DNA from: Symbiodinium sp. CCMP2592
Lineage: Eukaryota; Sar; Dinophyceae; Suessiales; Symbiodiniaceae
Direction of reading: 5' to 3'
DNA: 64,000 bases
Assembly (NCBI GenBank): GCA_905221615.1
Contig: CAJNDT010004890.1
Coordinates: 998,599-1,062,598 of the forward strand
How positions within the stretch are numbered: the stretch's first letter is position 1; each line of letters opens with the position of its first letter. This document shows positions 4,692-29,697 of this stretch, piece after piece. The translations under genes were made by a program, and so were the position numbers. A model generated the notes under the pieces. It had not been told where the DNA came from and made no database searches. It saw only the letters and a list, made by a program, of their open reading frames with translations.

Positions 4692-5139
4692 TGCGTGGGG
4701 AATTGATCTCGATTATGTTGCTGCTCTCCCCACCAGAGCTGTAATGAATATAGGTGTGGCTGGCTTGCACTCTCCACAGACTGGGACCCTGTCTCTCTCA
4801 CACTTCCACACGTGCAATCCTATGCAGGCAGAACCGGCGGCCGTTCCTTTTGCACTCGCTGCCGGCGGCGGTTCGTCTGTGCACGGGATAGCTCTGATTG
4901 CTCAGGATAGAAGACACATATAGCACTTAGCTATGGGCATTGACTTGAGCCAAACGTTGCGTGGGCGGTCACATAGAAAGGTAAGGAGAAGCGATGCGGT
5001 GTGCGTAGCACGTCCACAAGCTTACTCCTAGAGTCGAGGGACGCGTAGCGTGCCCCCTTCTCTTGCACTCTACACGGTCTTGCTCACAGCTCTTATAGTG
5101 ACACCTTAGAACTTGACAAGGCATCGCAGTCCGTTCGCA
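4692..5139 (-). repeat. 3' LTR
   Basis: This is the downstream partner of the 23988-24435 LTR, of identical length. Differences are scattered single bases, for example near 4702-4703, 4715, 4719, 4772, 4889, 4963, 4986, 5006 and 5040. The boundary at 5139/5140 is fixed by the run of six C on the plus strand, which is the polypurine tract of the element. Confidence 0.93.
4944..4954 (-). other. Dinoflagellate spliced-leader-like 11-mer in the 3' LTR
   Basis: This is the same 11-base match (TTTGGCTCAAG on the minus strand) at the equivalent LTR position as 24240-24250. I saw no other copy in the window. Confidence 0.45.
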
Positions 5140-5148
5140 CCCCCCATG
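5140..5148 (-). other. Polypurine tract
   Basis: Read on the minus strand this is CATGGGGGG immediately before the 3' LTR. A purine run touching the 3' LTR is the plus-strand primer site of LTR retroelements and confirms the orientation and the LTR edge. Confidence 0.8.
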
Positions 5149-5391
5149 AGTTGCGTCTCCGACGCTGCTCACCCGGAAGATGGCACGATAGGACAACAGA
5201 AAATGTTCCGCCGCAACGTTGACATTGAAAATCAGAGCTTTGTATCCCAATTAGAAACGTTGTGACACTCATCTACGTCAGTAACGATCCCCTGAAATGG
5301 CAAACGAATCAGGCGTCACCGAAGAAAGAAGCATTCGCGATGGCATTCCACGGGCGAAGCTCAGAGGTCACGAACTGAAAGATGATGTGGT
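5149..5391 (-). other. Untranslated interval between last ORF and polypurine tract
   Basis: About 240 bases with no convincing frame on either strand. It is the 3' untranslated part of the element's transcript before the LTR. Confidence 0.5.
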
Positions 5392-8300
5392 TCAAGCATT
5401 GTCTCGCCACCATCTTCGCGTTGACGTAGGATCGCGTTCCCAGGGCCGGAGGTTTTCCTCTGGATACTGTTCCCTTTGCTTTCCTTTGTCCTTGCCTTTG
5501 TTTCGGCCCTTACTGGCAATGTAGTCATGGTAGGTGTTGGTGTTCCAGCCTCCATGCTGCTCATTTCCAGTTCTCTCACGCCCTTTTGAAGGTCCCTTGG
5601 CCGAAGAAGCGCTTGCACGTTCCTCCGTAGTGACAGGCGTGTCCATGATGGAAGTACCACCTGGAGGGAGATACTCAGCGGCCGAGATGTGATGTAGGGC
5701 TTCCGTACGTTTGGTCGTCGGATTTTGCTGTCTCTCAGCCTTGGATCTGACCAATCTGTCCATGAAATGCGCAGGCATTTGCACATTGTGGTCCACCAGC
5801 AATCCAATGGTCTGGACTGAATGATCGGCATGAGTCAGCAGGATACCGACGGGGTCGATGTACAGGAAGTCCACCGGTCCAGTTGGCGTTGGTCGTAGCA
5901 CTGAGAATTGTTGGTGTCCTGTCACCATCGGAATCACCTCGCACAGGACGTTCAGGCAACAGAAGTGCATAGCCTTCACATCTTCATCCCTGTTGCTCTT
6001 CAAGTACGTAGTAGGGTTGAAGTTGTCCCTGCCAATTCCCATCATGTTGGCTCCCCGTGTAAGCAACGAAAGCATCTGATTCGTCCGGAAGCGCTTCAAA
6101 GTGTAAGTCCCGTTGGGATCGTACTGCTTGAGGTTCTCAGGCTCCTTGGCAAAGCGAATGATCTCCTCGTCAGTCACATCCCTGCTCAGACCCGTTTCTC
6201 TGTCCACTCCAGCCAAAGATCCCCACTTTCCGAGCACATCATAGCGTTGGCCAAGTGCGAAATTCTCCTTCATCTGGAACAACGGCATAGTCGCCCACTT
6301 CGCGAATCCTGACCAAGCCTTGTAGATGGTTCTGCACACCACGAATGCCATATACGAAAGAGCGGCCATGTTGGCGTCAATGCAATGGGTATTTCGCTTT
6401 CCTGGGTAGTAGGATGGCTGCATGGCGGTACGTGCGAGTTGTAGTTCAGGATCGATGTTCAAAGACTGGCCGGCGATGAGGACGGGACGTCGTTCCTGTG
6501 CAACTGCATCTGGTACTGCGTCATCAAAGTCCTCTCCTGGCTCTGTGTCCATTTCTTCATCAGGTTCCTGTTCTGGATCGTCCTCCGCGACGACAGATGG
6601 CTCTGGGATTTCCTCAGGTTCCGCAACGGTCTCTGTCTCCATGGCTTCCTGCTCCTCGACGGTCGCCTCAGGCACTGCTGCTGCCGCAGCTTCCATTGTC
6701 TGAGCAATGAAGTCACTGGGGATCTCCGTAGGAGTCTCCCGTTGTGGAGTACCTTGGTAGTATCCGCAAGAAACGAATTGTGACCAGCATGACGTGCATC
6801 GGGAGAAGCATGCTGGGACGATGTTGTAGCATGCCGGGCACACCCTCATTCTCCTTCCATCCCCGTCTCTGCGTAGGTCTTCGGGTCGCCAATTCTTGAT
6901 GACAAACTTGATCCCTTTGTCCATGTAGTGATGCCGAACCGTGTTCTCCCTGTGGGACTCCAGGACAGTCGTAAGGTCTCGAATGATCTGCTCCTTGCTG
7001 GTGTCGTGGGGTCCAGGAGGCATCTCGCAAAGCAATTCCATGATCTTGCTTGGTGTTCGGTATCTCTCGAATTCAGGGAGCAAAGGTGATGCATTGTAGT
7101 CCAACACCATCTCTTTCTCCAATCGTTCATCGTAGATCTTTTCCACCAGAGCGAAAGAGTGTGTATCTTGAGGATTCGGGACGCAAAACCATACCTCCTT
7201 GACGAACTGGAACGGTATCGTTCGGCCAACGATCATGATGCCGCTGTCTGTGATACGTCCATCTTCTCGTGCAAGGTCCTGCGAAGGGACATGGAGGACC
7301 GCCAGTGGCATGTGCTTGGCTTGTGGTCCATGTACCCGCATCTTGGTCGTCGCATTCCGGTGATCGAACGGTGCGAATACCCCCCAATAGCTGTGGAGTC
7401 TGCCGCCTTGGTTGCCTCGAAATTGGCGCCTATGGTCGAAGTCCCCGTCGGGGTCCTCCGAACCAGGCATGATGCCTTGCGTGACAATGGAATCCAGGTT
7501 GCGGCATGCCGTAGCGTGGAACGCGCCTCCAAGACGTTGCAAGAGGGTCATAGATGGAGATATTGCGAACCTGTTCTTGTCCAACTGAAGCAAATTGTTC
7601 TGGGGATCGGAGTGTGCAGAGTGACCACTCGTAGCCCGAACTGCCCATGGCTTCACCCAGCCGTTGCAAACGTTCAGGTACCTCTGGCTGTGCCGGCAAC
7701 GATCATTGTTCTGGATCTCTGTGATCTGGTCAGGAATCGATACCAACATGTTCGAGCCTGCGGATCCAAGAGTCTCCGTGCCGGGGTCCTTCACTCTCAC
7801 TCCCAGGAACTGCAGCCGAATCTTGGCCTTGTGGCGTCTCGTGGCTGCGAGCATGTTCCCTTGGAACAATAGCTGGAGTCTTTCATTGTACACTCTCTTC
7901 CTCTGTTGATCATCGGTCCTTGAGACCGCTTCTGTGATGCGTCTGCTGTCATGGGTCCATAGTTGCTCATGCCTCACCAAATCATCGATCAGCACCCACC
8001 CTCCTTCATCACATCGAATGACGCTGCTGAATGCCACTTGGCACCTGTTGTCAAGCCATTCCGAGCCTGGGCGCCTGGCGATTCTGTGACGCAGGTCAGA
8101 TTGAATGCATGATAGCGCCCAATCCGCGTTCCTTCTTCGATGATGGGTGATGTTGCGAAGGACAACTTCGTTCACGAGGTCCCATCGATTGTGGATGAAG
8201 CTTGCACCCTTGGTTGGGATCAGGTCGAGAATCCCGCATCGGATTGGCCTTCCGCCGCCGATGGATTCGTAGCCTGCATTGGTGTAGCCCTGAATAGTAT

Positions 8301-11061
8301 CATCATACTCAAAGCTAGGACGGTCTCCTCGTTGAGGTAGGCGTCGGTCGCGATGGTCCGAAAGCTGCTCAATGAGGTCCACCACCCGCTGACTGTTCTC
8401 TGGTCCCATGTCCTGCAGCGGCACACCACAAGCATCATGTAAGCCCCGACGGTTCTCCACATCCGTGCAGAGATTGTGTTTGTTCTCGTAACGGATCAAG
8501 ACCACATCACCCCGTACGGCATCGCCTCCGCGTCGCGGTCGGGCTTTGGCCTTGGGTCGTCGGTCCGAGGATGCAACACTCACATGGTCTGTGGTGTCAA
8601 CGTCCATTGGCTCAGCTTGTTGTGAAGGTATTCGACGTGGATATCGAAGAAGGCTTTCCTTGATGATCTGGATGCTTCGAAGTATCAGATCCCGGGTCGC
8701 AGCATTTTCCGTGCAATTGGACAGATGGTGTTGATCACTGCCACAAGCGATACAGAACGTGAGGCTATTGCTTCCGACCGACATTTCGCCCTGAGCAAGT
8801 ATTCCCACATAGTCCTGAAGCTGCGCGACAAATCCTTCACGAATCATCTGCCTGGGATCAGGGTCTCCTGCACCTTGTTCTTCTTCGGGTTGTGCATCCA
8901 CATCTACATCCTGTGCAGGTATTGGTGGAGCAACAGAGACCCCTGGATCGTCCGTGACGTTGTCAGCGGCCTGTGTCTCGTCGGTCCTTGCAATCTCTAC
9001 GGGGTAGATATCGCCATCGACGATCACTGTGAAGTCAATCACGAGGGCAGCGGACATGTTGTTGACGATCTCAGCGACTTGTTCATTCTTCTTGGGCGGT
9101 GTCCTCTTGCGCGGGGAGTCAACCGTGATCAGCTCGATAGCTTCGGCCGACGCGTAGCGGAAGAATGATCTTTCGCTCCCCCTCACGCACGCATTTGCCC
9201 CCTCAAGGCCACCCCAATTTGGAAAATGACTTGGGTGTCTCATTGCAATTGTAAGAAGCCCGAGTGCCAGCTCCATCGTGTCACCCAGGAGTTCCTCCTT
9301 GGGCAAGGCTGACCCCCTGTAGCATTCTTGGCGCTCCTCCGGAGTCAAAAGCATTCTCATGAAACCAGCATAAGCGCAGTTCCCGGCATCGTAGTAGCAG
9401 ATGTAGCATGTCTTGCCTTCGGAATCGTATCCTCTGTCCCATGCCAACTGTTTGGCCTTTCCCCATGCCGCGTACTCGATGGCCTGACTGGCTGTGATTC
9501 GGATACCACCGTAGTGAGAAACCGTCTTGCCAATGTCTTCGTAGACCACTTCCGCACAAGCTTTGAGGAACTCCTTGATGTCCATGCGAGGGTCCACAAA
9601 TTGAAGCCTCGGGTCATAAAGGTGCTTTGCGCAAGCCAAGGTGTACTTCTGGGACGCGACCAAGTCATTGAAGGAGCCGATTTGATGCTGCATCTTCAAG
9701 GCTGAAGTATGCGCGCACCCAATGCAGTGTCCAGGATACCCGTTTCCAGTCGGCTTGAAGAAGGCCTGTGCGTAGCACTCAGCCAACTTCATTTCGTCAC
9801 ATCCAGGGCAATAGAACGTTCTCCCTTTGACATAGCCGGTGTTCGGGGTCGCGTAGGTGTCGATCCGGAACCAGTAGTGCCTGTTGTCGTAATAGGCTTC
9901 GGGGACGGTCATGGCGATGTCAAAGTCCTGCCAGGTGACTGCGGACGATTCAGCGACCGTGTCACCCTGGGCATCCGACCTGATTCGTTGCTGTTGTTCT
10001 CCCGTGAACCATGTCTGCGAAATCTTGGTGGACGTCTTGACTTCACTCTTGTCCTCCCAAATCTCGACAAGCGACGGGTGAGCGACTGTGTCGGCGCGGA
10101 CAGTTTCATCCCATGAGCGGATTCTCGATGCCTCAACGAAGCACGTGGATACCATCTTCTCGCAGAACAGCTGCTTCTCATAGATAGCGTAGCCCAATTT
10201 GAACCTGACCCGAGAGTCCGGTGCTGGCACCTTTTCGGCTGACAGTGTATGCACGCCTGATGACGCATGCTTCATCTGGCTGTACATTCTTGACCAAAAC
10301 GAAGATCCATGAATCACCACGCATGCTCGGGCTCGCAACTCCAGTTCAATATACATTCCCAGCGCGTGGAAACCGTTGAACAGAGAAGCTTTGTGCTGAA
10401 GGTAGTTGCTAGCTGCTCCAACGAACCGTAAGTCGTGGTTGATGTTGACAATTGGAGGGCGCGTGGTACGCTTCCCTGCTGTGATGATAGGGTCAACGTA
10501 CGTCACCTTGAGCTGTCGTTGCAAGTCAGTACGGATCGCTGCTCCGTCTCCGACTTCACTCATCGGAAAAGACATGTTCTCGATGAGGATTGCCTGGAGA
10601 GACAGATGGTAATGCAGTGTGACGGTTGCAAGCTGCTCTTCAGTCAAGCCATCCAATGTCGCATTCACAGATTCCAACGATCCTTTTGTGACTTGGAAGT
10701 TGTAGTTGGCACCTGTGGTGATCGACGGGCTCACAATGTAGATCTCGCTCCACCCATGCATGCCGAGGTTCTCTCTCAACGTGTGCGTTGATCCCCTGGT
10801 CCTTGCAACCATGTCAAAGTCCTGGACGAGGATTGTGCATTGAGAGCGCATAGTCGCGGCATCAGGTTTGCCACCCATACCCAAACTATTGCGAAATCCG
10901 TTCAGCGTGTTCATGGTATTGATCCTTGCTTCTTCCGGAATGTCATCGTTGTCGACAAGATCGCGATCTGCCTCGATCATCACTGCCGAGGTAAGCATTG
11001 GAGGAGAAGGAAGATGCACGCATGATACCAATGCCAATGCATGGTACAGCCGTGAATACAT
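5392..11061 (-). CDS. Retroelement ORF with Tpt1/KptA-like RNA 2'-phosphotransferase domain
   Basis: An uninterrupted 1889-codon frame ending 252 nt before the 3' LTR. Seen in order: a large unknown N-terminal region with zinc-ribbon-like clusters (YCPGCDEMK...HCIGCAH, about 417-451; CYICYYDAGNC, 552-562); a CX2CX4HX4C zinc knuckle (CIACGSDQHHLSNC, 770-783); a Tpt1-like domain (about 975-1292); a further Cys cluster (CPACYNIVPACFSRCTSC, 1408-1425); an acidic linker (1455-1525); a conserved-looking C-terminal block (1526-1760); and a basic, disordered tail. Tpt1 landmarks are LRH (990-992), GGWVLIDDLV (1020-1029), TDDQQRKR (1049-1056), RATSGHS (1142-1148, cf. the family's RA-x-QGHS), FHATACRNLDSI (1181-1192, cf. 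the family's HGT) and RTIPFQFVKEVW (1280-1291). Known Tpt1 enzymes remove 2'-phosphates from spliced RNA with NAD+, and some ADP-ribosylate nucleic-acid ends. A role in the element's RNA or cDNA metabolism is inference. The ATG is uncertain; M22 (MLTSAVMIEADRDL) is an alternative. Confidence 0.85.
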   Translation of the reverse strand: MYSRLYHALALVSCVHLPSPPMLTSAVMIEADRDLVDNDDIPEEARINTMNTLNGFRNSLGMGGKPDAATMRSQCTILVQDFDMVARTRGSTHTLRENLGMHGWSEIYIVSPSITTGANYNFQVTKGSLESVNATLDGLTEEQLATVTLHYHLSLQAILIENMSFPMSEVGDGAAIRTDLQRQLKVTYVDPIITAGKRTTRPPIVNINHDLRFVGAASNYLQHKASLFNGFHALGMYIELELRARACVVIHGSSFWSRMYSQMKHASSGVHTLSAEKVPAPDSRVRFKLGYAIYEKQLFCEKMVSTCFVEASRIRSWDETVRADTVAHPSLVEIWEDKSEVKTSTKISQTWFTGEQQQRIRSDAQGDTVAESSAVTWQDFDIAMTVPEAYYDNRHYWFRIDTYATPNTGYVKGRTFYCPGCDEMKLAECYAQAFFKPTGNGYPGHCIGCAHTSALKMQHQIGSFNDLVASQKYTLACAKHLYDPRLQFVDPRMDIKEFLKACAEVVYEDIGKTVSHYGGIRITASQAIEYAAWGKAKQLAWDRGYDSEGKTCYICYYDAGNCAYAGFMRMLLTPEERQECYRGSALPKEELLGDTMELALGLLTIAMRHPSHFPNWGGLEGANACVRGSERSFFRYASAEAIELITVDSPRKRTPPKKNEQVAEIVNNMSAALVIDFTVIVDGDIYPVEIARTDETQAADNVTDDPGVSVAPPIPAQDVDVDAQPEEEQGAGDPDPRQMIREGFVAQLQDYVGILAQGEMSVGSNSLTFCIACGSDQHHLSNCTENAATRDLILRSIQIIKESLLRYPRRIPSQQAEPMDVDTTDHVSVASSDRRPKAKARPRRGGDAVRGDVVLIRYENKHNLCTDVENRRGLHDACGVPLQDMGPENSQRVVDLIEQLSDHRDRRLPQRGDRPSFEYDDTIQGYTNAGYESIGGGRPIRCGILDLIPTKGASFIHNRWDLVNEVVLRNITHHRRRNADWALSCIQSDLRHRIARRPGSEWLDNRCQVAFSSVIRCDEGGWVLIDDLVRHEQLWTHDSRRITEAVSRTDDQQRKRVYNERLQLLFQGNMLAATRRHKAKIRLQFLGVRVKDPGTETLGSAGSNMLVSIPDQITEIQNNDRCRHSQRYLNVCNGWVKPWAVRATSGHSAHSDPQNNLLQLDKNRFAISPSMTLLQRLGGAFHATACRNLDSIVTQGIMPGSEDPDGDFDHRRQFRGNQGGRLHSYWGVFAPFDHRNATTKMRVHGPQAKHMPLAVLHVPSQDLAREDGRITDSGIMIVGRTIPFQFVKEVWFCVPNPQDTHSFALVEKIYDERLEKEMVLDYNASPLLPEFERYRTPSKIMELLCEMPPGPHDTSKEQIIRDLTTVLESHRENTVRHHYMDKGIKFVIKNWRPEDLRRDGDGRRMRVCPACYNIVPACFSRCTSCWSQFVSCGYYQGTPQRETPTEIPSDFIAQTMEAAAAAVPEATVEEQEAMETETVAEPEEIPEPSVVAEDDPEQEPDEEMDTEPGEDFDDAVPDAVAQERRPVLIAGQSLNIDPELQLARTAMQPSYYPGKRNTHCIDANMAALSYMAFVVCRTIYKAWSGFAKWATMPLFQMKENFALGQRYDVLGKWGSLAGVDRETGLSRDVTDEEIIRFAKEPENLKQYDPNGTYTLKRFRTNQMLSLLTRGANMMGIGRDNFNPTTYLKSNRDEDVKAMHFCCLNVLCEVIPMVTGHQQFSVLRPTPTGPVDFLYIDPVGILLTHADHSVQTIGLLVDHNVQMPAHFMDRLVRSKAERQQNPTTKRTEALHHISAAEYLPPGGTSIMDTPVTTEERASASSAKGPSKGRERTGNEQHGGWNTNTYHDYIASKGRNKGKDKGKQREQYPEENLRPWERDPTSTRRWWRDNA
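7186..8139 (-). other. Tpt1/KptA-like domain within the 1889-codon ORF
   Basis: Residues about 975-1292. The order of conserved blocks follows cellular Tpt1: LRH helix, GW-V-x-IDDL wing, D-x-QR, A-T-x-GHS, H-x-T followed by a helix and G-x-x-P, a beta-rich tail with VLHVPSQDL, and IP-x-x-FVKEVW. An extra insertion of about 70 residues separates D-x-QR from the GHS block. The QGHS glutamine is Ser here and HGT is HAT, so catalysis cannot be assumed. Confidence 0.75.
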
Positions 11062-12895
11062 CCGTAAGCCACACCTTTGTACTCAGCTTCACGTAGACCT
11101 TCAGGTTGAGACCCTTGTCATCACTTTGTGAGACGGAACGAATCCTTGCCAAATAGGTCACCAGTCTTCTGACGTAATGCTGAATCGGCGTGGTCCCCAC
11201 GTCGTGGTTGGCCACAAACTTTGGCGTCTCATCAATGGTAGGTGGGTACTCGTCGTGATCACGGGTCGTCGTCAGCAAAATCGAACGACAGCCTTTCTCA
11301 TTGATGTTGACATAATGATACCAACTTTCCTGAGCGCCAGCGGGGATTGGAGCTTCCTCCCATGTCGGTTGCGATGGTTCCTCTTCCGGTTGCGAAGGCG
11401 GTTGTTGTGGAGGAGGTGCCGCAGAAGATGACGACGCCGATGCCGTTGCCTCGTCCGTCCTTGCCCTCTTTGGTCCGTGGCTAGGGGTGGCTCGAGGTCC
11501 GGCAGCGGATCCTTGCGATTGTTCCGGCGTTCTTCCATGCTCAGGGTGCACGATTCCTTCCGGTTCGAGGTTGCTTGCCGTAGGCATCGCAACTCTCCCC
11601 GTTGAGTATACCCAGCTAGGATGCCGTTGAAGGTTGGGCGGAAACAGGCCATCATCTTGCATAAGCGGACTTGGTGCCCTCATCTGTTGGAATTCCGCTT
11701 CCCATATGCCCAATGTGGCGCGTTTGGTAGAGCAGTCGACCACGTACCCAGATTCAACTCCGCATTGATTCCAGGTGTAGCCACGGAACGCATCCGGCAA
11801 TTGGAAACCGTTCTTGTCCTGAGCTGCACATACGGCATCCACATGGTACTTGAGGAAAGCATACGTGGTGTAGTCGGAATCGGGGAGCACGTCATTAGAC
11901 CATCGATAGTGCGGGAGTCCAGTTCGTGGATCGACCCATGATACATAGGAATGAAGCACGTAGAGACAAACACTGAACGCCTGGAGTGAGTTCATTGCAA
12001 AGGCGAGCGGATGTCCCATGCCTTGAGGCAATGTGCGCATCATTAAAGCCAGCTGGTGAACGTTGATTGGCGAAGCGCCATCGTTGCCCGCTGCACATTC
12101 CTGGTTGTAGGTCCGAAGCCCATACCCAGTGTGCTTTGCGAACATGTACATCAGCTTGCACACCCTACATAACGTAGGCTCTCCCAACAGGTCGGATTGG
12201 TCAGGTGCTCTGCCTGACATAGGCAACTTGTGGTAGTAGTCCCGATTCACCGTATACCATTGTTGAATTCTCGTGTCTGTCACGGCCTGGTAGGGCGTCT
12301 CCACGGAATTGATGAGAACGGCGAGATTGTAGTACACGTCCGCGCTGACGATGTTCCTGGTTGCAGTGTTCAAGTCGAACCGAACTTGTTTTCTTTCTTG
12401 TTCCAGTTCAACCACAGCCAACTTTGCATCATCACGGATCACTTCCTCATCCACCATAAATCTTGTGATGGCATGAAACTTCCCTCCGTAATCAGCAACA
12501 ACGTGCTTGAGACCTCCACCAAACTTGATGACCATGGCGAGAACCTCCCCATAAGGTTTATTCATGTACTCCTCCGGGGCGGCGAATAAGCAAGCCTTGA
12601 GGATTTCTCGAACTCGAATGGAAAGATCCCCTCCTGGCGACAGATTTGCACACGTGAACAGCAAGACCAAAGGAGGTGCTTTGAAAGCTGCCCATGTGCG
12701 AATGAGATCATTGTCGACCACTTTGTCTTTCGTAATCTTTGGTGGGAGCGAAACGCTCTGCGACGAGTCCTCAGAATACATCTGCAGAAACTTGTGGAAC
12801 TTCAGGAACGTTCGCATCATCCCACCAGAAGGGAAAACTTCTTCATGGTCCACTCCTTCGAAGGCCAGCTCGTAGGCATTGTAGCTTTCACCCAT
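10943..12895 (-). CDS. Retroelement ORF downstream of pol, unknown 650-residue protein
   Basis: A 650-codon frame starting ATGGGTGAAAGC 112 nt after the end of the 13007-13570 frame, still inside the element and on its coding strand. Residues 1-400 look globular, with Cys/His pairs (LCRVCKLMYMFAKHTGYG near 244-261). About 450-540 is a low-complexity Ser/Pro/Gln/Glu linker with PKRARTDEA, a possible nuclear signal. About 545-600 is folded again. The end overlaps the next ORF by 119 bases in a different register. Codons there fit this frame upstream and the 1889-codon frame downstream, so the two may once have been a single ORF. No known family; not a typical env, as I see no signal peptide or transmembrane helix. 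Confidence 0.75.
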   Translation of the reverse strand: MGESYNAYELAFEGVDHEEVFPSGGMMRTFLKFHKFLQMYSEDSSQSVSLPPKITKDKVVDNDLIRTWAAFKAPPLVLLFTCANLSPGGDLSIRVREILKACLFAAPEEYMNKPYGEVLAMVIKFGGGLKHVVADYGGKFHAITRFMVDEEVIRDDAKLAVVELEQERKQVRFDLNTATRNIVSADVYYNLAVLINSVETPYQAVTDTRIQQWYTVNRDYYHKLPMSGRAPDQSDLLGEPTLCRVCKLMYMFAKHTGYGLRTYNQECAAGNDGASPINVHQLALMMRTLPQGMGHPLAFAMNSLQAFSVCLYVLHSYVSWVDPRTGLPHYRWSNDVLPDSDYTTYAFLKYHVDAVCAAQDKNGFQLPDAFRGYTWNQCGVESGYVVDCSTKRATLGIWEAEFQQMRAPSPLMQDDGLFPPNLQRHPSWVYSTGRVAMPTASNLEPEGIVHPEHGRTPEQSQGSAAGPRATPSHGPKRARTDEATASASSSSAAPPPQQPPSQPEEEPSQPTWEEAPIPAGAQESWYHYVNINEKGCRSILLTTTRDHDEYPPTIDETPKFVANHDVGTTPIQHYVRRLVTYLARIRSVSQSDDKGLNLKVYVKLSTKVWLTDVFTAVPCIGIGIMRASSFSSNAYLGSDDRGRSRSCRQR

Positions 12896-13006
12896 GGCTC
12901 GGGATTCGGTCCTTCCTCCGTGAGAGAGAAGTACCCACCCCTATGCGACTTCACGGTTCCGGGTGCTCTGTAAGAGGCACCCTTCCCCGATCCGTCGGGT
13001 CAGACC

Positions 13007-13570
13007 TTAGTTGTTCCTTAGTCGGGGCTGTGTTATAGCCCCTTCATCAGCGTCCATACACTGACGTTGCTGCCATGCAATGTCCTCAGATTCATGTGCA
13101 ACATGACTGACACTGACATGAGCTCGAACAAGGCTGCGAACATTCCTCGCAATCGACCGCCATGACACATCAATGCGCTGCGACAAACTGCTCTTCGATT
13201 CATGGTCCAAGCAATCATCCATTCTCACCATCAAACGATCCGCTTCAGGCATGTTAGAGAACATGATCCTGCGTCCACCACCATCGCCACCAGCACCAAC
13301 ATGGTCATCAATCTTAACCTTCGTCACCTTGCCACTTGAAACAAGAGCATGCAACTCTGGCCAAGACCAACATGAACATGAAGAAGGCATGTCAAGCGAA
13401 AAATAGACGTCGGAAAATTCCGCACACTTCTTCAGCAGGCGTTTGAGAGATTTCAAGACACTTCTGAAAACCTTGTACTTCCCACCGGAACGTTTCTCAC
13501 CCCCCACGCAAGCCCCTTCACTACTTCCAGGACCAACACCTGATCGCAAAAGCGATGCCACGAATAGCAC
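13007..13570 (-). CDS. Possible continuation of the pol C-terminal extension in another frame
   Basis: This 187-codon minus-strand frame overlaps the last 118 bases of the pol frame and carries on beyond its stop. The middle (KVFRSVLKSLKRLLKKCAEF, then FSLDMPSSCSCWSWPELHAL) looks like folded protein, with basic helices and a Cys/Trp cluster. The final third is less convincing. It is either the true end of pol after a frameshift near 13570 or a shadow frame. No family recognised. Confidence 0.4.
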   Translation of the reverse strand: MLFVASLLRSGVGPGSSEGACVGGEKRSGGKYKVFRSVLKSLKRLLKKCAEFSDVYFSLDMPSSCSCWSWPELHALVSSGKVTKVKIDDHVGAGGDGGGRRIMFSNMPEADRLMVRMDDCLDHESKSSLSQRIDVSWRSIARNVRSLVRAHVSVSHVAHESEDIAWQQRQCMDADEGAITQPRLRNN

Positions 13571-16500
13571 AGGTGTGCGCAGGTCATTCCGGCACGATCC
13601 TTCATCGCACCGATAAGGCTGTCCTCATCGGCCTTAGAGCCAATCAGCTCCTTGCAAGTTATGCGAGCGCATCCCTTAGTGGACTTAGGCACGGCGTAGC
13701 CATTGCCCAAGCCACAGAGGTCAACAATCATGCGGTCAGGCTTTCGTCCACCAGCCTTCGACGGCATGGCTACCAATCTCCCATCGCCCGTTGCCTGAAA
13801 TTTCAAGGCTTTAAGCAATCTCCTGGAGATTTGGCTAGTCAACTCGCATTTATCAGATCGATCCTTAGCGTCCGAATCGGTCATGTGCAAATGTTTGGAC
13901 GAGCACACGTCAGACGACTTAGGATGCAACGCGACGTTTGCGGCAATGTACTCCCATTCATCCTTGCAGTAGCCGAGCTCAACGGCGGTTCCGGGAGATA
14001 CAGGATCCCGAAAGATATAACGTTGCCCGTGAGTGCATCCTTGGATCTTGATGCTCTTCCACATGGCATCTTCCTGAAGTCCCTTGTACTGCTTGGTTTC
14101 CTGAACTTGTACTCGAGGAGGTACTTCGATGATGATTTGGAACCCCCACGATGCCGCTCTGCGCGCAATTCTTTGGACGACCTCCCCCCATGGGTAGTCT
14201 GTCCGCAATTTGGCCCTTTCAGGGTTGTCAGCGATTTTCCGACTCAGCCACGAATTCTTGCCCAACACCCCTGCGCCAATGAAGATCACGGAGTTAGGGT
14301 TGTTTTTCCTTGCTTCCACCACATCGAAGAGGTAGGCACACATGGCGTCGTCAACTTCTCGCCCCATACTCAGAACATTTACTTGCAACCCAGGGTCGTA
14401 GTGAGAATCGGGAGCATGCTGCGCAATGCAGTCCTTGCCAGGAGCATACTCATTCCACCAGTTCTCCTCATCGACTCCTGCCAATGTCCACACCGTCACT
14501 GCGTTTGGAGCATCTTTGATAGTGATACGGTATTTCCAACGGCTGTAAGGATTTCTGTAAGTATGGACCAACCCTCCATGGTGGTCGAGGAATTGGATCA
14601 CCAGGCCCTCCTTGGGTTTGTTTTCGGCGAAGTTGACCACGTGAGGCACAATTGCTCCATCATATCCTTGATATTCCCTTTTCTGTTCAGCCGCATCATG
14701 CCATACATCCTCGTACACTGACGACCATTGGTCATAGCCGAATTGGGAGGCTTGACTTTTGGACTGGCCGTTGAAACAAAGAGGTAATGTAAAGCCCTGG
14801 TACCCCCCATGGATGGCACGCGCCAGTGTGACAACCACCGCTCGCCATTTGGCGGGCAGGGCGCGCACATAAGACTGGCCCAAAGGCGGTTCAGGAGGAG
14901 GCAAAAACGGCGGCGCAAGGACGTCCGCAATAGCGGCTGGGCGCAAATGCCCCCGTACCGGATGGTACTGAAACACAGCACGCTCCACATAGCGGTCGAA
15001 CTTGCCCGGTTGATCAAGGATAGCAGCACGGTCCTCCATTTGGTGCCACTGCCCTTCACGAAGAATCCAAGTCGACCGAAGGTAGCGACCAGGCGGCAAC
15101 GCGGAAGGCGGCCCCCGCAGCATGCGCGGGAACTTGACAACCAGGATGGGGTCCACACTGTCATGTTCTTGCAAGCCTTCCTTACTCGACAATCCAGCGC
15201 GATACAACACCTGAGGGAGGATCGGCGTCTGCGTGTAAGGAAAACAGGGCACTTCGCTCTTGAATGAGTAGTGCTGTTGACCCTTCTCATCCGTGCTCTG
15301 GGTATGAGTAGGGCGCATCAGATCCATAATCTCTTGGGAGCCAATGAGAGCCGGCGGAAAAATGTTGATGAGCTGACACGCATGTGTCCAGGACACAGAA
15401 TCCTTGAACGACTTGGTGTGTATGTCCGCTGACATCTTGGCAGTGACCTCATAGGCAAGAGAAACGTAACCTTCCTGAAAGATAGAATGCATCCATCCAA
15501 TGCAGATGCCGTGGGTACGTTCCAAATGACGCATAGTCGGATTCTTGCCCGTGCGAATCACCCCGATCATGGTCTGGTTGTCGTCGTAGAAGACGAAGTT
15601 GGGGTCTTGCCCCCCAAGCTGCTGCCACAACGTGATAGCAGGCAATCCAAGACGTGACATGGCAAAGTCGGCCGCGACAATCTCGGCCTCAGGTGTGGAA
15701 TGACTCAAGCACCCCTGCCTTTTGCTAAGTCCCGCCAAGGGAAATCTTGTGTGAGAACCTTGAATGTGCAAGTGAGCACCGGAGGTAGATTTCAAACTTT
15801 CTCCACAACCTGCATAGTCCGCATCTGCAAACAGCCCGATGGACGAGTCCTCCAAGGAGTTCCCGACCCATCCAATCATCATGTGATGTTTGGACTGGTG
15901 CACATAGGCCATGAGATGATGAAGAAGAGCATCCTCCTTCTTGGTCCATTTCGTGATCTTGCGTGCGAGATTGTTGATACTGCGCAGAAGATCAAAGCGG
16001 CAAATGCGCGCGGCATAAAGCAATTTCATGAGAATGCTTGCTGCCTGCGGAGCAAGTGCGCCGCGATTAGCCTCGTTGATCTCCTCTTCCTCTGGCGCCT
16101 TGGGAATAGGTGGAGGCGGAACAAGCCGACCGTCCTTATCAACAGGCATGGTGTGTCCACACCACGTGCATCGATGGCTTTTACCTGACTGTGCCGGAGC
16201 GCGAGCTGGGTGATTCTTAGTCTCCTCAGCCGGACTCGGCGATGGTACCGTCTTGAATTTTGTCGGATCGAACCCAGTCACGTCGCAGTACTTCTTGACT
16301 GTCATGTCCAGGTACGTCTCCATGTCGTAGGTAACGGTCTGCACCTTCGTTTTGTCATGCAACGTTGCCTCGCCCTTGGAGATGCGACAACCCAGATACA
16401 AACCTAGTGGCGTTTCTTCTTCCAATCGAAGTTCTTGGCGCAGCATGTCCCAACCCTTGGGCAGGTTCTCTTTGGGCCCTGCCATCTTGAGATCATCCAC

Positions 16501-16662
16501 GTAGATGACAAGTAAGAGCTTCATCTGCGGGTGGAAATACAATGATGGCCATTCGTCGCCAATCGGCTTGAATCCTACTTTCTGTACCGCGGTATGGCAA
16601 TGTTGTTCCCACATGGTTCCTGCATCAGGATGTCCATATAGAGCTTTGATCAAGCGACACAC
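13453..16662 (-). CDS. Copia RT (YVDD), RNase H and long C-terminal extension
   Basis: This is the continuation of pol. The frame is open a little upstream of the listed GTG (HKFRRPVCRLIKALYGHPDAG), so there is no real start here. The RT catalytic motif LLVIYVDDLKMAG is at residues 51-63. RNase H spans about 272-420 with FADADYAG, KSTSG, SKRQ and STPEAEIVA, the classic Ty1/copia block, and FYDDN around 358. After about residue 450 comes some 600 residues not expected in a standard copia pol. These include a Pro-rich stretch (about 586-594) and an alpha/beta-looking part (VIFIGAGVLGKNSW near 792-805, then GEVVQRIARRAASWGFQIII near 826-845). I cannot name that extension. The last about 40 codons may be in the wrong frame, because an overlapping frame (13007-13570) also looks protein-like. 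Confidence 0.88.
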   Translation of the reverse strand: MCRLIKALYGHPDAGTMWEQHCHTAVQKVGFKPIGDEWPSLYFHPQMKLLLVIYVDDLKMAGPKENLPKGWDMLRQELRLEEETPLGLYLGCRISKGEATLHDKTKVQTVTYDMETYLDMTVKKYCDVTGFDPTKFKTVPSPSPAEETKNHPARAPAQSGKSHRCTWCGHTMPVDKDGRLVPPPPIPKAPEEEEINEANRGALAPQAASILMKLLYAARICRFDLLRSINNLARKITKWTKKEDALLHHLMAYVHQSKHHMMIGWVGNSLEDSSIGLFADADYAGCGESLKSTSGAHLHIQGSHTRFPLAGLSKRQGCLSHSTPEAEIVAADFAMSRLGLPAITLWQQLGGQDPNFVFYDDNQTMIGVIRTGKNPTMRHLERTHGICIGWMHSIFQEGYVSLAYEVTAKMSADIHTKSFKDSVSWTHACQLINIFPPALIGSQEIMDLMRPTHTQSTDEKGQQHYSFKSEVPCFPYTQTPILPQVLYRAGLSSKEGLQEHDSVDPILVVKFPRMLRGPPSALPPGRYLRSTWILREGQWHQMEDRAAILDQPGKFDRYVERAVFQYHPVRGHLRPAAIADVLAPPFLPPPEPPLGQSYVRALPAKWRAVVVTLARAIHGGYQGFTLPLCFNGQSKSQASQFGYDQWSSVYEDVWHDAAEQKREYQGYDGAIVPHVVNFAENKPKEGLVIQFLDHHGGLVHTYRNPYSRWKYRITIKDAPNAVTVWTLAGVDEENWWNEYAPGKDCIAQHAPDSHYDPGLQVNVLSMGREVDDAMCAYLFDVVEARKNNPNSVIFIGAGVLGKNSWLSRKIADNPERAKLRTDYPWGEVVQRIARRAASWGFQIIIEVPPRVQVQETKQYKGLQEDAMWKSIKIQGCTHGQRYIFRDPVSPGTAVELGYCKDEWEYIAANVALHPKSSDVCSSKHLHMTDSDAKDRSDKCELTSQISRRLLKALKFQATGDGRLVAMPSKAGGRKPDRMIVDLCGLGNGYAVPKSTKGCARITCKELIGSKADEDSLIGAMKDRAGMTCAHLCYSWHRFCDQVLVLEVVKGLAWGVRNVPVGSTRFSEVS

Positions 16663-16960
16663 AGGTCTACGGAATTTATGCCTTTCGCAGATGGATGCCA
16701 GGCTTCATCAGGCAGTTCAACCCAACATGGAGTGCCCGATAGTCTCGCCTGAATGTATGCTTGGATAGCATCCGCCATCTGGACATCGTTGCCAGGAAGG
16801 CATCCGTAATAATCTGCCCACCGTGAGGCGTCAAACGTAGCCGGGGAATTCCCCAAATCCTGAAACAACGCGGCTTCCATATTTTGGTCTTTGACCTGAT
16901 CACCGAGTAGTACGCCTCGCCCTTTGAACTTCCTGGCAGGATCGTCCTCTTTGAGCTGAT
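16650..16960 (-). pseudogene. Displaced RT segment between two frameshifts
   Basis: This minus-strand frame carries the RT core missing from the neighbouring frames: NYQLKEDDPARKFKGRGVLL, then DQVKDQNMEAALFQDLGNSP, then ADAIQAYIQARLSG and WVELPDEAWHP. It lies one register from the upstream 2415-codon frame (junction near 16965, at a run of four A) and one register from the downstream frame (junction near 16685). Both shifts are equivalent to -1. Two separate shifts inside one catalytic domain look like decay or sequencing error rather than programmed frameshifting, because copia pol is normally uninterrupted here. Confidence 0.85.
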
Positions 16961-19900
16961 AGTTTTCTCATATATCAGTCCATGTACTCGCGCCATATGT
17001 ACTTTCTCACCTTTCTTCTTTGCCTCAGCGACGACGTCGTCATATTCACGCGTAGTTGAGAAATCAAACACCTCTTGGTCCCACAATCCCTTCCATTCTT
17101 TCATGAAAGCTTCCATGGCCTTGGGGTTGTTGACCATCTCCTTGCGTGTGACGGGTCGAGTGACCATGGCATTGAAGCATGATCCTCCTGCATGATTCTT
17201 TTCCCGATGTACGTTTCTGTGAGAAGTCGTACACGGCATAGACGGAATCCAGTTATCATCCATGACCATATGCGCCGGAACGGCCGGCACGACGTCTGCC
17301 AAGAATTGTTCTTGTGTGTATTGATCCACATAGGACTGTGCCCAGGACCATCCATCGTCGTCGTCAATGGACACGTTGAGTTGCAGATCAATTTCTTCAC
17401 ATGGAACAATCTTGGGAAAGATCATGTTGTCCAAAATCTTGGTGACTATCTTCTTTCCTATCACAGCCTTCTTCCGGTCCTTCTTGGCAACTCGAGCTTT
17501 GTCTCGCTTTTCTTTCTTGTACGCTGCCTTCTTCTCCGCTTCACTCATTTTCTTCCATGCTTCCGGAGAATAGGAATGGATAGGTCGCCGTGTAGGGAGA
17601 GTTCGTCGACCGTCGCTTCGGATCTTGTATGGGACTCCCCTTTTATCGATCTTGCAGGCTTCACCATCATCAGTGAGATATACAATGCCGTCCCCTTTCT
17701 TCCCCGTACTCCAATGTTCAATCTCCTCAGGAGCCAACTTCTTTTCTTTCAAAATCTTAATGATCTCTCCAGGTTCTTCGATGTCTCCTTCGGGGATGAG
17801 TCTACCGGTTGGACCGACTTCGCGGGGCGAGCGCCGATCTTTCCCGGTGACCTTTGGTTCAGAAGGAGGCGGTGCTGCACGTAGACCTAGCTCTTCGTCT
17901 AGTTCTTCGAGTCTTTTGTCTCCTATAGCATCAATAGCTTCATGTTCTGCTGACTTGAAAACTTCGCCAGACGGCTCCGTCTCTATGTCAGATGGATCTA
18001 TGTCCTGTAAGTCAGGATCTTCTCCGGGATCCGGTGGAGGAAGAAGACCATCTTGATCATCATCATCCCCGTTGCCACCATTTCCTCCAGGCGGACCGTC
18101 ATCCCCGTCATCGACGTCTTTTATCTCCTTGCCAGCGAGGTCAACGTTGCCCCTGAGTCCCTCAATGGTTGAGTTCATCCTCTCGTACTCGGCTTTCAGG
18201 GGAAATGTTATCTCCTCTGGGAAGTAGATAACTTCTGTCTCGTACGGTCTCATCAACTTCCTGGGAACAGATGCGTCCATCGACAAGTTCGCATTGGCAA
18301 ATTCCTTCATGTCCCACACGCGATACTTCTTGGACCACCCTTGACCAGCAGTGATGATGTATCCGGCAAAAATGCCTGGGATCCCCTTTGGATCGAACTT
18401 GTTGCCATATGTCTTCGGCCTTGTATCCGTCGGCTTGAAGAAGACCTTGGCCCCAAATGGTATGGCTTTTCCCTCGAAGTCCTTCCCAGTCATCCGTTTC
18501 CATGCTGAATCACCATCGCCCTCCACGTCTTCAATGTTGAGGTTCTGCATCACGCAATTCAGTGCAAAGGACCAGTATTGGGCGGGTAACCCGGCGTGTA
18601 GCATGGATGCTGCGACTGTGTTGATCACTTCTTGATTTGATCGTTCAGCGAGTGAATTGTTACTGGGTTTCCCTGGAAGGGAATGATCTATCACGATCTT
18701 CAACTGCGCCATAGCTGAATCGAACTCTGGTGCTTCATCACTATACGCCATATGAATCTTGCGTCTTCCCATTAGGCGTCTGATGGCCATGACGACCTCG
18801 TCAGTATTCCTTGAAGCCGTGGGAATCGCTGCGATCATTTTGGTGGCGATGTCTCTGATGACTAGAACTTCACGTGCTCCATCATCGAGTCCGATACCCG
18901 CTTCGGCGGCCTTGCGCATATCGAGGAAGTCGAACGTCACAAGATCCCCCCAGTGTTTGATCACACGTTGAAACGCACCTCGTTGTGTCCGCAAGTGCTT
19001 CATCTTCGCGCGTATGCACGATTCGCAATATGGATTGCGGTAGCGATGAGTACACAGATGTGCCAACGTCTTGGCTTCGGCTTTCAGTGTTCCGACTCTG
19101 GCCTTGCGGCTCGGCGCACCGTCGCCTTCCACATCAATGATCACCTCATCGTCACCGTCCAATGGAATTTCACCCACTCCTTTTCCTTCGTCGTCCGGAG
19201 GTCGTCCGGCCTCGGACTCTGGTACTTCTTCTATAGGAGGTTCTTGGGGTTCAGGGTCAGGAGGTCGTTCATGATCGTCACCTTCTTCTTCTGCTTCAAT
19301 TTCGCTCGGTGCAGCTTCAGCGGCAGCTGCGACACTGACGTCAACATCACCCGCGGTTAGCACACCCTTGAAGATTTCGGTGATCGCTTTGGCCTCCGGA
19401 TCATCATGAACCAGTGACTTGGAACTCCCGGCGCGAATGTACGGAATGTCACCGTTCACGAACAGAGATATTCTCTTGCCCTGCGGGTTGATCATGAATG
19501 GTTCCCTTCCGGGTGGCCACACAAACCCGTAGTTGAAGTTCATGCATCTTTTACCTATGGAAAGCACCGACGGTGTGTCATCCAACACATAAGCGTTGAT
19601 CGGTTCCTCGAACGACTCAGTCTGGAAGTTCGACACAAGATCGGTATCGGTGATCCCATTTGCTGTCTGAAATGATATGGGCTCTGGAGTCACGAGTGTC
19701 TCGAGACTGTGCTTCTCGATCTTCTTCTGAGATATGAGGTCATGGCCACACCCAGTGTCCATGAGAAACTTGATCTTCTTCTTGAGGATGACTGGTTGAA
19801 CCATGCATTTGAATACACCTTGATTGATGATCCGTTTGCTGTGCGCAGCATCGAGTTCACGCTCAACGATGGAATCCTCACCGTCATAGAAGGAAACTTC

Positions 19901-22900
19901 TTCCACTCGAGACGTTCCTGGGATTCGTACGAATGAAACTCGATCTCCGCATTGATCATCATCGTCGTCAACCATGTCTCTCATGATCTGTGCCCTCAAT
20001 CTCGCTTTGTGCTTAGCGAATTCCAAATTCACGGCGCGATCCTCATTGTTGACAAGCGCTTCCATGTCGACGTACTTCACCTTCCGCTCCTTGTCCTTCT
20101 TCGATCTTCTAGGACACGAAGAAATGAACTTCACGTCGTCGGCGAATGTCACGTTACGCTTGATCTCTTTTCGGGTCGACGTAGTCGGTCCCGAGGATTC
20201 GTCGTCAGTTGAACAATCCGAATCAGCGTCGCTGTCAACGGATGGACAATCTGACTCTTCCTCATCTTGTCTTGAAGATCGCTTCCATATAGCCGGGGCT
20301 GATGGATTCCACCTTCGGCACAATCTGATGGCGGGTGCCGCAGGGAGTGCCTTGGCCTTGGCATTCGGCTTCGCTGGAGCTGCCTTTGCTTCGGATTTGG
20401 CTTTAGCTTTTGCCTTTGGTTCCGGAGCTGGGGTAGCTGCTGCCTCATGCTTGAAAGGACAATTCTCTCTTGAGCACGAGCCTGTGTTCTTGAAAGAGTA
20501 GCATATCCTATTTCCTCCTCCTCCAGACGGACTTGGAGTTCTCGTCCTCGGCGTAAAGGGTCGCTCTGGAGTCTTCTTCGAGTGACTGAATGGGCACTTG
20601 TCACCATTTCGACACCCTGCATCTGTGAAATGGAACTTGCAGCGGATTTGCTTCTTGCTCTTGTCGCCTCTGTTGTCCGCTGACTCACTCCTCGTCTTCT
20701 TCTTGGGCTTTGGCTTGGTCTTCGCATGACTCTTCGCTTTGCTTTGAGGTAGTACAGGTGTTGCTTTATCCGGCTTGGTAGGCGAAGCTTTGACCTTTGC
20801 GGATGGAGCTGCGTTAGGCGTTGGTTTCTCAGGTACCTTGGCCGGTGCAGCGAGCAAATCCTTGCCCTCAAGCATCTGGCGCAAACCAATTTGGGTCTGA
20901 GTGAGATTTGATTGTTCTCGTCTCCGCATGATGGTACGGTCGATGATCTTCATCAGATTGTCGTACGATCGGTCTTCATGATTGTAGGGCAAGTGTTCGT
21001 AGTGCATGCCCAACTCCATCTTCATTGCGGGCGAGTCCTTGATCTTGCTGTACAAGCAATCACGGAGAGCTGTTTTGGATGGTATGTCTTCTGGCCTCAT
21101 CCGTCCCAGAACTTCCAACCACGTCTGCTTGAACGTATGAAGTTTGTTGTCGCCTTGGTACTGGAGCTTCACCAGATACTCGAGAGTGATGATCATGTCG
21201 AGACGATCGTGCGTTCGAAAACTTTCATACATCATCGCAATGATTTGTCGTCCTTTGATGATCTTCCCTTCGGGCCTGCTGATGTAATCGTTGGCCTTCC
21301 GGTTCACCTCCAGGTACAGATCAGCAGATTTGTCACCACCAGCGCGTAGCATTGCGACCATGGCGATCCCCAATTTGACGTCTACGCTCTTGAACTTCTT
21401 GTGTCCCGAATCGTTCAGTGCTTCGACATCAGGGAATGGATTGAACGCTGGTGCCAGCCATAACATCCAGTCCTCATGATTTGGGTCGGCTGATGCTCCT
21501 AAGACATTCGCCGTGCATACGGATCGCCAGTTGTTGAGGTGAGTGAGAGTAGGCCATGGAGGAACGGTCACTTTATCGGCCTCCCTCCTGGAAATTCTCA
21601 CCTCTGTGACTTCAGGATCTGCGTCTCCATCAGGATCACGCGCATGAGGGTCAGGATCCGGGTCAGGTTTGCCTCCACCGCTTCTCTTCTTATCATCATC
21701 GTCATCATCAGGCGGATCTGGAGGGTCATACCCCGTGCCGGCTCCTTCATCATGCTCTCCCTCTCCGTTCTCGTCGCCAGCTTCATCACCGTCATCGTCT
21801 CCATTGTCTTCCTGAATCGTTTCAGCAAATAATCTCCACTCATCACGATCAGCTCTGAGACGCTGTTCGGCTTTCTGGGCCTTGAGTACTTCGCTTCGCA
21901 GATCAGCAATCTTCTCTTCGTACCGTTCCGCGACCTCTTTCTCGATCTGACGCCTCCTTGCCTCATGGATGGAATCGTCATAGGCGACAGGGGCACCAAT
22001 GAGGTCGTTGCCCTTTGTAGATGCGATAATGCCGTCGATACCAACAGGTCTTGAGGAGCTGGCAGATGCTGTGGACTTCGATCCCAACATCCCGCGATCC
22101 TCCAAGAGTTCACGTAGCTGTCGATCACGCACGGCTGCCGCATCACTTTGCCCATGAAATCCGCTTGGTATGCCAAACAGAGTGGCTGCACTAGGCGTGG
22201 AACGCGCATGTGCTGGGCTGCTAATACCTGGCACGTAGTGCTCGGGCATTGCATCCGCCACGATTGGCGTTGAATAGGATTTATTCACCTCACCTTTGAT
22301 GCGGCCAGTGAAGAAGTTTCCACCGGTAAATGGAATTCCATCCATCGCAAGGTTCTTGTCCTTGTCCGATTCCGAGAATGCGAACTTCTCTTTGGCGACT
22401 GGACTAACTTGACTTGGGGACCGTATTTCAGGGGATCGTACCTCACCTCCTACGGAAAATGCAGGCACTACTTCCTTTCCTACGTGCTCCCAGCCAGACT
22501 CAGTAGTCCTCGAAGACATGGGCATGCTCGAAGGCCGTGTCACTCCGCCATGGTAGTTGGAGTTCCGTGCTGCCTCCAATTCGCTGCGTGTCCTCGCTTG
22601 AAGATCTTCTTGTGCTTTGAGTGTTTTCCTGAGTTCACTCAGCTCGTCGTGCAAGGTAGGCAATGCGCGCCTTGCATGATCTTCATTCTGATGAAGTCGG
22701 TCCTCTGCATCTTGCATCCTCCTCACAGCCATTTTGCGGTACTCTTCCTCTTCACCAAGACGTTCGCGAAGCCGAAGTCGTTCTTGATCAATGGCTGCGC
22801 TGTTCCCAGCTAGCCCTTGGATCTCGTTCACGGCCCGCAACTCCTGATTCTTGACCAAGTGGAATCGTTCCTGCATTGCTTGTAAGGCTTGTTCCGAACT

Positions 22901-23923: not shown

Positions 23924-23968
23924 TGTGGTCGTAGTAGATCAAGTAGTCGTTGCTGCAGAAAGGCAGAG

Positions 23969-23987
23969 CCGCGTACGGCTGATAACC
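23969..23987 (-). other. Putative primer-binding site, possibly a half-tRNA type
   Basis: Directly after the 5' LTR the minus strand reads GGTTATCAGCC. It does not resemble the usual complement of a tRNA 3' end (TGG...). It matches the complement of a eukaryotic initiator tRNA-Met anticodon arm (GGTTATGAGCC, from memory) at 10 of 11 positions. Drosophila copia is primed by such an internal tRNA-Met fragment. The loop CTGATAA also resembles a tRNA-Ile(GAU) anticodon loop, so the tRNA is uncertain. Confidence 0.4.
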
Positions 23988-24435
23988 TGCGTGGGGTTTT
24001 GATCTCGATTGTGTCGCTGCTCTCCCCACCAGAGCTGTAATGAATATAGGTGTGGCTGGCTTGCACTCTCCACAGACCGGGACCCTGTCTCTCTCACACT
24101 TCCACACGTGCAATCCTATGCAGGCAGAACCGGCGGCCGTTCCTTTTGCACTCGCTGCCGGCGGCGGTTCGTCTGTGCACGGGGTAGCTCTGATTGCTCA
24201 GGATAGAAGACACATATAGCACTTAGCTATGGGCATTGACTTGAGCCAAACGTTGCGTCGGCGGTCACATAGAAAGGTAAGGAGAAGCGATACGGTGTGC
24301 GTAGCACGTCCGCAAGCTTACTCCTAGAGTCGAGGGACGCGTAGCGTGCCCCCTTCTCTTGCACTTTACACGGTCTTGCTCACAGCTCTTATAGTGACAC
24401 CTTAGAACTTGACAAGGCATCGCAGTCCGTTCGCA
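23988..24435 (-). repeat. 5' LTR
   Basis: This 448-bp repeat has TG...CA ends and pairs with 4692-5139. In element orientation it reads TGCGAACGG...CCCCACGCA. I count about ten substitutions and no indels against the other LTR. It should carry promoter and polyadenylation signals, but I see no standard TATA box, and dinoflagellates generally lack one. It contains the 11-base spliced-leader-like match described separately. Confidence 0.93.
24240..24250 (-). other. Dinoflagellate spliced-leader-like 11-mer in the 5' LTR
   Basis: The minus strand reads TTTGGCTCAAG, identical to the 3' half of the 22-nt dinoflagellate spliced leader. The bases upstream only weakly resemble the rest of the leader. 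The same 11-mer is at 4944-4954 in the other LTR. Relict spliced leaders are known in dinoflagellate genes that passed through mRNA and were reinserted. Confidence 0.45.
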
Positions 24436-25195: not shown

Positions 25196-25278
25196 CTCTT
25201 CTAGAGGGGTCTTAGTTTCGCACCGCAAGAAGGGTTGCATAAGGCTTCCTAAGGCTTTATATGGTTGATGGCGGCGAT

Positions 25279-29658: not shown

Positions 29659-29697
29659 CTAGTGAGATGAAGCAAGGGGGTTTCGGTTTCAGGTTTC

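Follow-up and report, generated by a model that had tools for sequence, protein, structure and literature searches.

The enzymes grouped as Tpt1, KptA and TRPT1 (PF01885) are proteins of about 200 residues, and Tpt1 is a tRNA-splicing enzyme whose role, according to the relevant passages of PMC9458441, is open where tRNA splicing leaves no 2'-phosphate. For CthTpt1, passages of PMC6333775 give a tetrad of Arg18, His19, Arg68 and Arg121, the two later arginines being supplied by the KxR and RxxVH motifs, with His101 and Thr103 of the HGT motif holding the NAD adenosine and touching its 2'-OH. In dinoflagellates, SymbioLINE-Dnmt and SymbioDIRS-Dnmt3, as presented in parts of PMC5890265, are LINE and DIRS elements that have acquired cytosine (DNA) methyltransferases, and the same parts describe the copia elements of Symbiodinium as lacking methyltransferases. 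Here, we describe a domain related to Tpt1 in the third open reading frame (ORF3) of a Ty1/copia-type long terminal repeat (LTR) retrotransposon on the minus strand of one stretch of the Symbiodinium sp. CCMP2592 genome (contig CAJNDT010004890.1, positions 998,599 to 1,062,598; hereafter the window, 64,000 nucleotides in all). Like the two described elements, this is a dinoflagellate retroelement with an acquired enzyme of the nucleic-acid-modifying kind whose active site appears to be kept.

Members of the Ty1/copia class, including the half-tRNA-primed Drosophila copia and Ty5, have LTRs, a protease and integrase encoded ahead of the reverse transcriptase (RVT_2) and RNase H, a primer site resembling the anticodon arm of a tRNA, and a polypurine tract. 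The element in the window shares these features and differs in its length of 19.7 kb, in an extension beyond RNase H and in a third ORF of about 2500 codons with a Tpt1-like domain. The word 'phosphotransferase' is absent from the main text of PMC5890265 and from PMC11453091, and among the matches listed from open-licence PMC articles there was no report of a Tpt1/KptA-type or ADP-ribosyltransferase domain in a retrotransposon. As far as these searches reach, it is a known class of element with an accessory enzyme not previously reported in that class.

The original prediction had placed a Tpt1/KptA-like domain at 7186..8139 (residues 974-1292) in an ORF of 1889 codons lying between the copia pol and the 3' LTR. 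The position of the ORF, the coordinates and the nature of the domain are all upheld, the last by sequence profiles, conservation and predicted fold. In a Pfam search with the whole ORF, PF01885 PTS_2-RNA was the sole family at E ≤ 1 (residues 1014-1199, E 5.8e-6), its 26.9 bits lying just above the cut-off of 26; the 416-residue domain submitted alone scored 31.9 bits. All seven rows of an alignment of the family (A1) matched PF01885 at E ≤ 1, and hhalign paired this alignment with four canonical Tpt1s at E 3.9e-7. A chance motif match was ruled out by column shuffles, none of 100 reaching the score of 53.8 obtained in a rerun (the best reached 24.5). An artefact of gene prediction alone was likewise excluded, as the ORF in the window is a single open frame of 1889 codons.

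Searches of the PDB gave fainter signals. The domain sequence retrieved kinase chains only by phmmer (E about 0.3), which we judged to be chance, and a profile of the 7-row alignment ranked Tpt1 first at just E 0.02, for which reason we relied on hhalign and on the predicted fold. The fold was taken from a prediction made with a deeper alignment, that made from seven rows (predicted local distance difference test score, pLDDT, 45.8) having been set aside as poor. The model is predicted to combine a winged-helix RNA lobe with an ADP-ribosyltransferase lobe, both of which were matched by Foldseek, and the matches that run along both lobes were exclusively Tpt1. The DarT DNA ADP-ribosyltransferases align to model residues 210-375 only, a region that excludes the RNA lobe. 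Taken by profile and model, the domain is a divergent member of PF01885.

The domain is not confined to one copy. A protein search with the ORF found 7 relatives and a search with the alignment 60 more (weakest E 1.9e-13), bringing to 67 the number of other predicted proteins with a full or partial match to it; the explanation of a frame unique to this copy can thus be discarded. Every relative with an organism name is from Symbiodinium. Many of the matches are partial, linkage to LTRs being known for the element in the window and linkage to pol for two gene models. These two models, P0005 and P0006 of Symbiodinium sp. KB8, are collinear with the window from pol into the Tpt1-like domain, the match of P0005 starting past the integrase core and that of P0006 starting at RNase H and ending within the domain. 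Since both run from pol into ORF3, the domain is tied to a copia pol beyond this copy. Among the relatives it is collinear within the ORF at 38-76% identity, and the assigned tetrad is kept. Nothing was found between E 1.9e-13 and 0.01 in the alignment search, which relies on shared five-residue words; therefore no intermediate cellular Tpt1 was reached. The viral_contigs set yielded no confirmed relative (19 pattern matches, 0 confirmed).

Residue correspondences were tested in 14 alignments (8 MAFFT and 6 hhalign) of the family with the four Tpt1s, and conservation was counted over the window protein and the 67 relatives, using at each position only the proteins that cover it (Table 1). The motif blocks LRH, GWV, RAxxGHS and the His and Thr of HGT occur in the same order as in Tpt1. 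The original prediction had listed these blocks, with RATxGHS and HAT as the forms found here; DDQQR, which stood beside them, is no Tpt1 motif, and the likely third and fourth arginines of the tetrad, R1082 in KIRLQF and R1221 in GRLHSY, were missing from its list. R991 and H992 were aligned to the Arg-His pair of the tetrad in all 12 alignments reaching there, and H1182 and T1184 to the HGT residues in all 14; these four positions are thus firmly placed, and they are also kept. With R1082 and R1221 the domain would have the R-H-R-R tetrad of Tpt1 in addition to its two-lobe predicted fold. It is unlike Tpt1 in having HAT where Tpt1 has HGT, in spacing LRH and RAxxGHS about 90 residues further apart, in a longer stretch around GRLH and in being embedded in a retroelement ORF of about 2500 residues.

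All four assigned tetrad positions are covered by 20 of the 68 proteins and are kept in 19 of these, the exception being gapped at R1082. Six positions were then considered together, namely R991, H992, R1082, R1221, H1182 and T1184, with R1242 left out; of the 20 proteins covering all six, 17 keep every one. On average the commonest residue has a share of 0.976 at these six and of 0.656 domain-wide; the former value is reached by 3 of 100,000 random sets. At the four firmly aligned positions alone the average is 0.974 (58 of 100,000), neither figure being corrected for kinship among the proteins. R1242 is an invariant arginine that had been equated by eye with Arg139 of CthTpt1; that placing is supported by no alignment and was dropped.

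Table 1. Positions in the window of the element, its coding regions, the residues discussed and the surrounding repeat arrays
Feature	Position	Strand	Basis or remark
Whole copia-type LTR element, 19,744 bp	4692..24435	-	LTR pair and internal ORFs
3' LTR, 448 bp, TG...CA ends	4692..5139	-	LTR comparison
Polypurine tract ATGGGGGG, abutting the 3' LTR	5140..5147	-	Read from the sequence
Main ORF3 part, 1889 codons	5392..11061	-	77% identical to P0001 608-2490
Four-cysteine zinc-type site beyond the Tpt1-like domain	6787..6840	-
Tpt1/KptA-like domain, residues ~960-1300 of the 1889-codon ORF	7162..8184	-	Ends approximate
R1242 (35/35), invariant Arg in KMRV	7336..7338	-	No sure Tpt1 counterpart
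R1221 (39/39) in GRLHSY, likely fourth tetrad residue	7399..7401	-	Alignment and conservation
HAT for Tpt1 HGT (H1182 42/43, T1184 42/43)	7510..7518	-	Aligned in 14/14
RATSGHS motif (R1142 39/39)	7618..7638	-	Aligned to IRAxxGHS in 14/14
R1082 (50/52) in KIRLQF, likely third tetrad residue	7816..7818	-	Alignment and conservation
R991 (51/51) and H992 (48/51) in DLRH, tetrad residues 1 and 2	8086..8091	-	Alignment
CX2CX4HX4C zinc knuckle ahead of the Tpt1-like domain	8713..8754	-	Last C not kept by all relatives
Four-cysteine zinc-type site, CxxC...CxxC	9703..9810	-	Conserved in relatives
N-terminal ORF3 part, 650 codons, no known domain	10943..12895	-	70% identical to P0001 1-608
Remaining pol: RVT_2 reverse transcriptase, RNase H motifs and beyond them an unassigned extension (several hundred residues)	13453..16662	-
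gag-pol ORF, 2415 codons: CCCH zinc fingers, aspartyl protease, integrase core, SH3	16676..23923	-	Pfam
Likely primer-binding site GGTTATCAGCC, immediately past the 5' LTR	23977..23987	-	Anticodon-arm match
5' LTR, 448 bp, TG...CA ends	23988..24435	-	LTR comparison
Telomere-repeat arrays	26446-26529, 27442-27713, 29692-29893, 32193-32286, 34049-34231, 37573-37654, 46905-47046
Telomere-repeat arrays	48541-48631, 56171-56311, 58057-58164, 60398-60540, 63044-63254, 63771-63907

The 1889 codons that the original prediction took for a protein stand as an open frame and make up the larger part of ORF3. The predicted protein P0001 (2490 residues) spans both this frame and the 650-codon ORF before it, with the frame switch at 11066/11067, so ORF3 is most likely a single ORF of about 2500 codons that is broken once, by a frameshift, in this copy. 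Three zinc-type sites in it are conserved, two with four cysteines and one a CX2CX4HX4C knuckle. Outside the domain, PDB profiles gave no notable match to ORF3, and PHROGs gave none to P0001; a profile of the whole of ORF3 (A4) did not find Tpt1 chains in the PDB at E ≤ 1. A search with the part of ORF3 that precedes the domain found 7 proteins, among which P0001, P0003, P0004, P0006 and P0069 have Tpt1-domain sequence. With the same query, P0070 of Symbiodinium microadriaticum, a protein with a precomputed ankyrin-repeat domain (PF12796), showed short ORF3-like stretches matching window positions 9052-9543 (45%) and 9751-10161 (30%), which are perhaps a captured piece or the product of a fused gene model.

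The element is of the Ty1/copia type because of its LTR pair (439/449 identical over 449 aligned positions), its gag-pol and RVT_2 content and its polypurine tract. In the gag-pol ORF, zf-CCCH alone exceeds its Pfam cut-off, the aspartyl protease, integrase core and retroviral SH3 matches being weak and below theirs. RVT_2 scores 31.5 bits in the window (cut-off 31.6) and 35.9 bits in the collinear P0005, and the protease and integrase core lie upstream of it. Compared with P0005, pol is broken in this copy by two frame changes between 16686 and 16967. A target-site duplication was not found at the ends of the element, which are preceded by CAAAAA and followed by GCCTG; such a duplication marks a clean insertion and not a family, and recombination between copies can remove one.

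The complement of GGTTATCAGCC agrees with the anticodon arm of initiator tRNA at 10 of 11 positions when E. coli metZ, which may differ from the host's own tRNA, is used as the yardstick, and the mismatched base is the first of the anticodon. None of the other positions on the two strands of the window, 127,978 in all, matches with at most one mismatch; longer matches are poorer (2 mismatches over 12 nucleotides and 3 over 14), and the arm was chosen after the site had been seen. This anticodon arm is generally common to eukaryotic initiator tRNAs. In the window itself ARAGORN detected no tRNA gene, and no Rfam family attained its gathering score. According to the part of PMC5371799 concerned, Ty5 is primed by an initiator tRNA that has been cleaved within its anticodon loop, and Drosophila copia by a half-tRNA. 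Given a site that resembles the anticodon arm, as in those two elements, the primer here would be a cut tRNA half, and we consider that the element probably primes in this way.

From the sequence and the model we infer that the domain is active and has a role in the replication of the element. We put at roughly 0.6 the probability that ORF3 encodes a catalytically competent Tpt1-type enzyme that serves this replication by healing RNA ends. In such a scheme, an Arg-His pocket in the N-terminal RNA lobe would receive the phosphate at an RNA junction or end, the C-terminal ADP-ribosyltransferase lobe would bind NAD+, and the zinc-type sites flanking the domain could hold nucleic acid. The enzyme would act on RNA (or cDNA) ends formed as the element replicates, either by transferring to NAD+ a phosphate located at a terminus or junction, whereby ADP-ribose cyclic phosphate and nicotinamide are released, or by attaching ADP-ribose to a 5' phosphate. 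As substrate we favour the initiator tRNA that, judging from the primer site, would be cut, and specifically its 3' terminus. If the cutting leaves a 2' (or 3') phosphate there, this would have to go before reverse transcriptase could extend, and end healing would suit a tRNA half left phosphorylated by a cyclizing nuclease. The narrower proposal that the element carries its own primer-repair enzyme, an NAD+-dependent Tpt1 domain stripping the 2' (or 3') phosphate off the cut initiator tRNA, is tentative, and we regard it as unlikely. If it were true, NAD+ supply would gate transposition, and the link with cut tRNA would explain how elements primed by half-tRNAs can come to have a clean 3' end. 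Retention of Tpt1 by a mobile element would, moreover, give the enzyme a second, selfish and testable use, and RNA repair or nucleic-acid ADP-ribosylation would be added to the functions acquired by retroelements.

A number of observations weigh against an active end-healing enzyme of the Tpt1 type. The significant hhalign match is confined to the NAD lobe (KptA residues 79-164), the Foldseek E-values are 3.4e-3 and worse, and the deviation over the two lobes is large (root-mean-square 5.5-9.7 Å). Full-length P0001 has no Pfam match at E ≤ 1, although its domain alone matches. The equivalog model NF002014 of NCBIfam gave 13.2 bits, and because this falls short of its cut-off of 239 the domain is assigned to a divergent branch of PF01885 and not to that equivalog. 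P0068, a Symbiodinium relative of ORF3, is without the Tpt1 region at the expected place, either because this ORF3 lacks the domain or because the gene model is incomplete there. As for priming, the yardstick was the initiator tRNA of E. coli and not of the host, and one base differs. The relevant part of PMC5371799 also attributes the cut in Ty5 to RNase P, which implies a 3'-OH and therefore an end that should not need healing.

Further difficulties concern the active site. The third tetrad position falls on R1082 in 6 of 12 alignments, on R1123 in 4 and on I1113 in 2. The fourth falls on R1221 in 8 of 13, namely in every one of the 8 MAFFT runs; in the 5 hhalign runs reaching there it falls on E1202, and H1223 is matched to the His of RxxVH. 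Because the alternatives vary (position 1123 is R in 27/46; position 1202 is S in 19/42 and E in 3), R1082 and R1221 are to be preferred, and we regard them as likely to be the third and fourth tetrad residues. They were, however, picked partly for being conserved arginines, and with R1123 and E1202 in their stead the six positions average 0.822, and 3,898 of 100,000 random sets do as well. The glycine of HGT is replaced by alanine in 43/43 proteins; in the solved enzyme, as described in the corresponding passage of PMC6333775, that glycine makes contact through its main-chain carbonyl and a water. Arg139 of CthTpt1 has no conserved counterpart and falls on the variable residues 1247-1249 in 13/13 alignments. 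Finally, H992 is replaced in 3/51 proteins, R1082 is absent in 2/52 and H1223 is replaced in 3/39.

The main rival to end healing is that the active enzyme caps 5'-monophosphate RNA or cDNA with ADP-ribose, thereby shielding the element from host exonucleases or sensors. Human TRPT1 is reported, in the portion of PMC9458441 on this point, to ADP-ribosylate 5'-phosphate RNA in vitro and on overexpression to raise the ADP-ribosylation of cellular RNA, and titles of PDB entries include TkoKptA with DNA and NAD+ as well as a 5'-p-ADPR-DNA complex. Pure capping may not need R991 and H992, yet both are kept, and their Tpt1 counterparts contact junction phosphates (PMC6333775, in the section on these residues). 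We regard capping as an unlikely reading of this domain. Also unlikely, in our estimation, is that the Tpt1 fold has been retained for RNA binding only, as a non-catalytic structural part of an accessory protein. The zinc-type sites on either side of the domain, HAT in the place of HGT, the roughly 90 extra residues between two motif blocks, the divergence from the solved Tpt1s and the want of a conserved counterpart for Arg139 would all suit a binding role, but the catalytic and NAD positions, H1182 and T1184 among them, are highly conserved.

An about equally unlikely reading has the enzyme removing 2'-phosphates after element RNA is joined by a host ligase of the tRNA-ligase type, or erasing a 2'-phosphate mark set by the host. 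We know of no case in which an element of this kind is spliced or ligated, and no feature seen in the window suggests it, even though removal of a 2'-phosphate is the established Tpt1 reaction in the passages of PMC6333775 and PMC9458441 that deal with it. That the domain is a mere passenger, a captured fragment of a host gene drifting with no role in the element, could be read from the frameshifts in pol and ORF3 of this copy and from P0068, but is very improbable for a domain that is collinear, and has its assigned tetrad kept, among relatives of 38-76% identity.

Several other features of the element and its surroundings were recorded. The pol extension past RNase H (13783-15300, minus strand), with for example GAGVLG, WGEVVQRIA and IIEVPP, is conserved in P0005 and P0006 and had no notable match in Pfam, in PHROGs (searched with the pol ORF) or in PDB profiles. 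The gag-pol ORF contains two CCCH-type zinc finger matches, the better at 20576-20653 on the minus strand (25.5 bits, cut-off 20.5). A gag commonly has CCHC knuckles; in this element a CCHC knuckle sits in ORF3. The plant-type telomere repeat (TTTAGGG/CCCTAAA) forms numerous interstitial arrays in the window, which lie in both orientations and outside the element. An inverted repeat of 105 nucleotides, 90% complementary and with its arms 231 nucleotides apart (25278-25382 and 25614-25718), lies about 0.8 kb outside the 5' LTR, and part of it recurs past the other end of the element, at 438-498, with 82% agreement.
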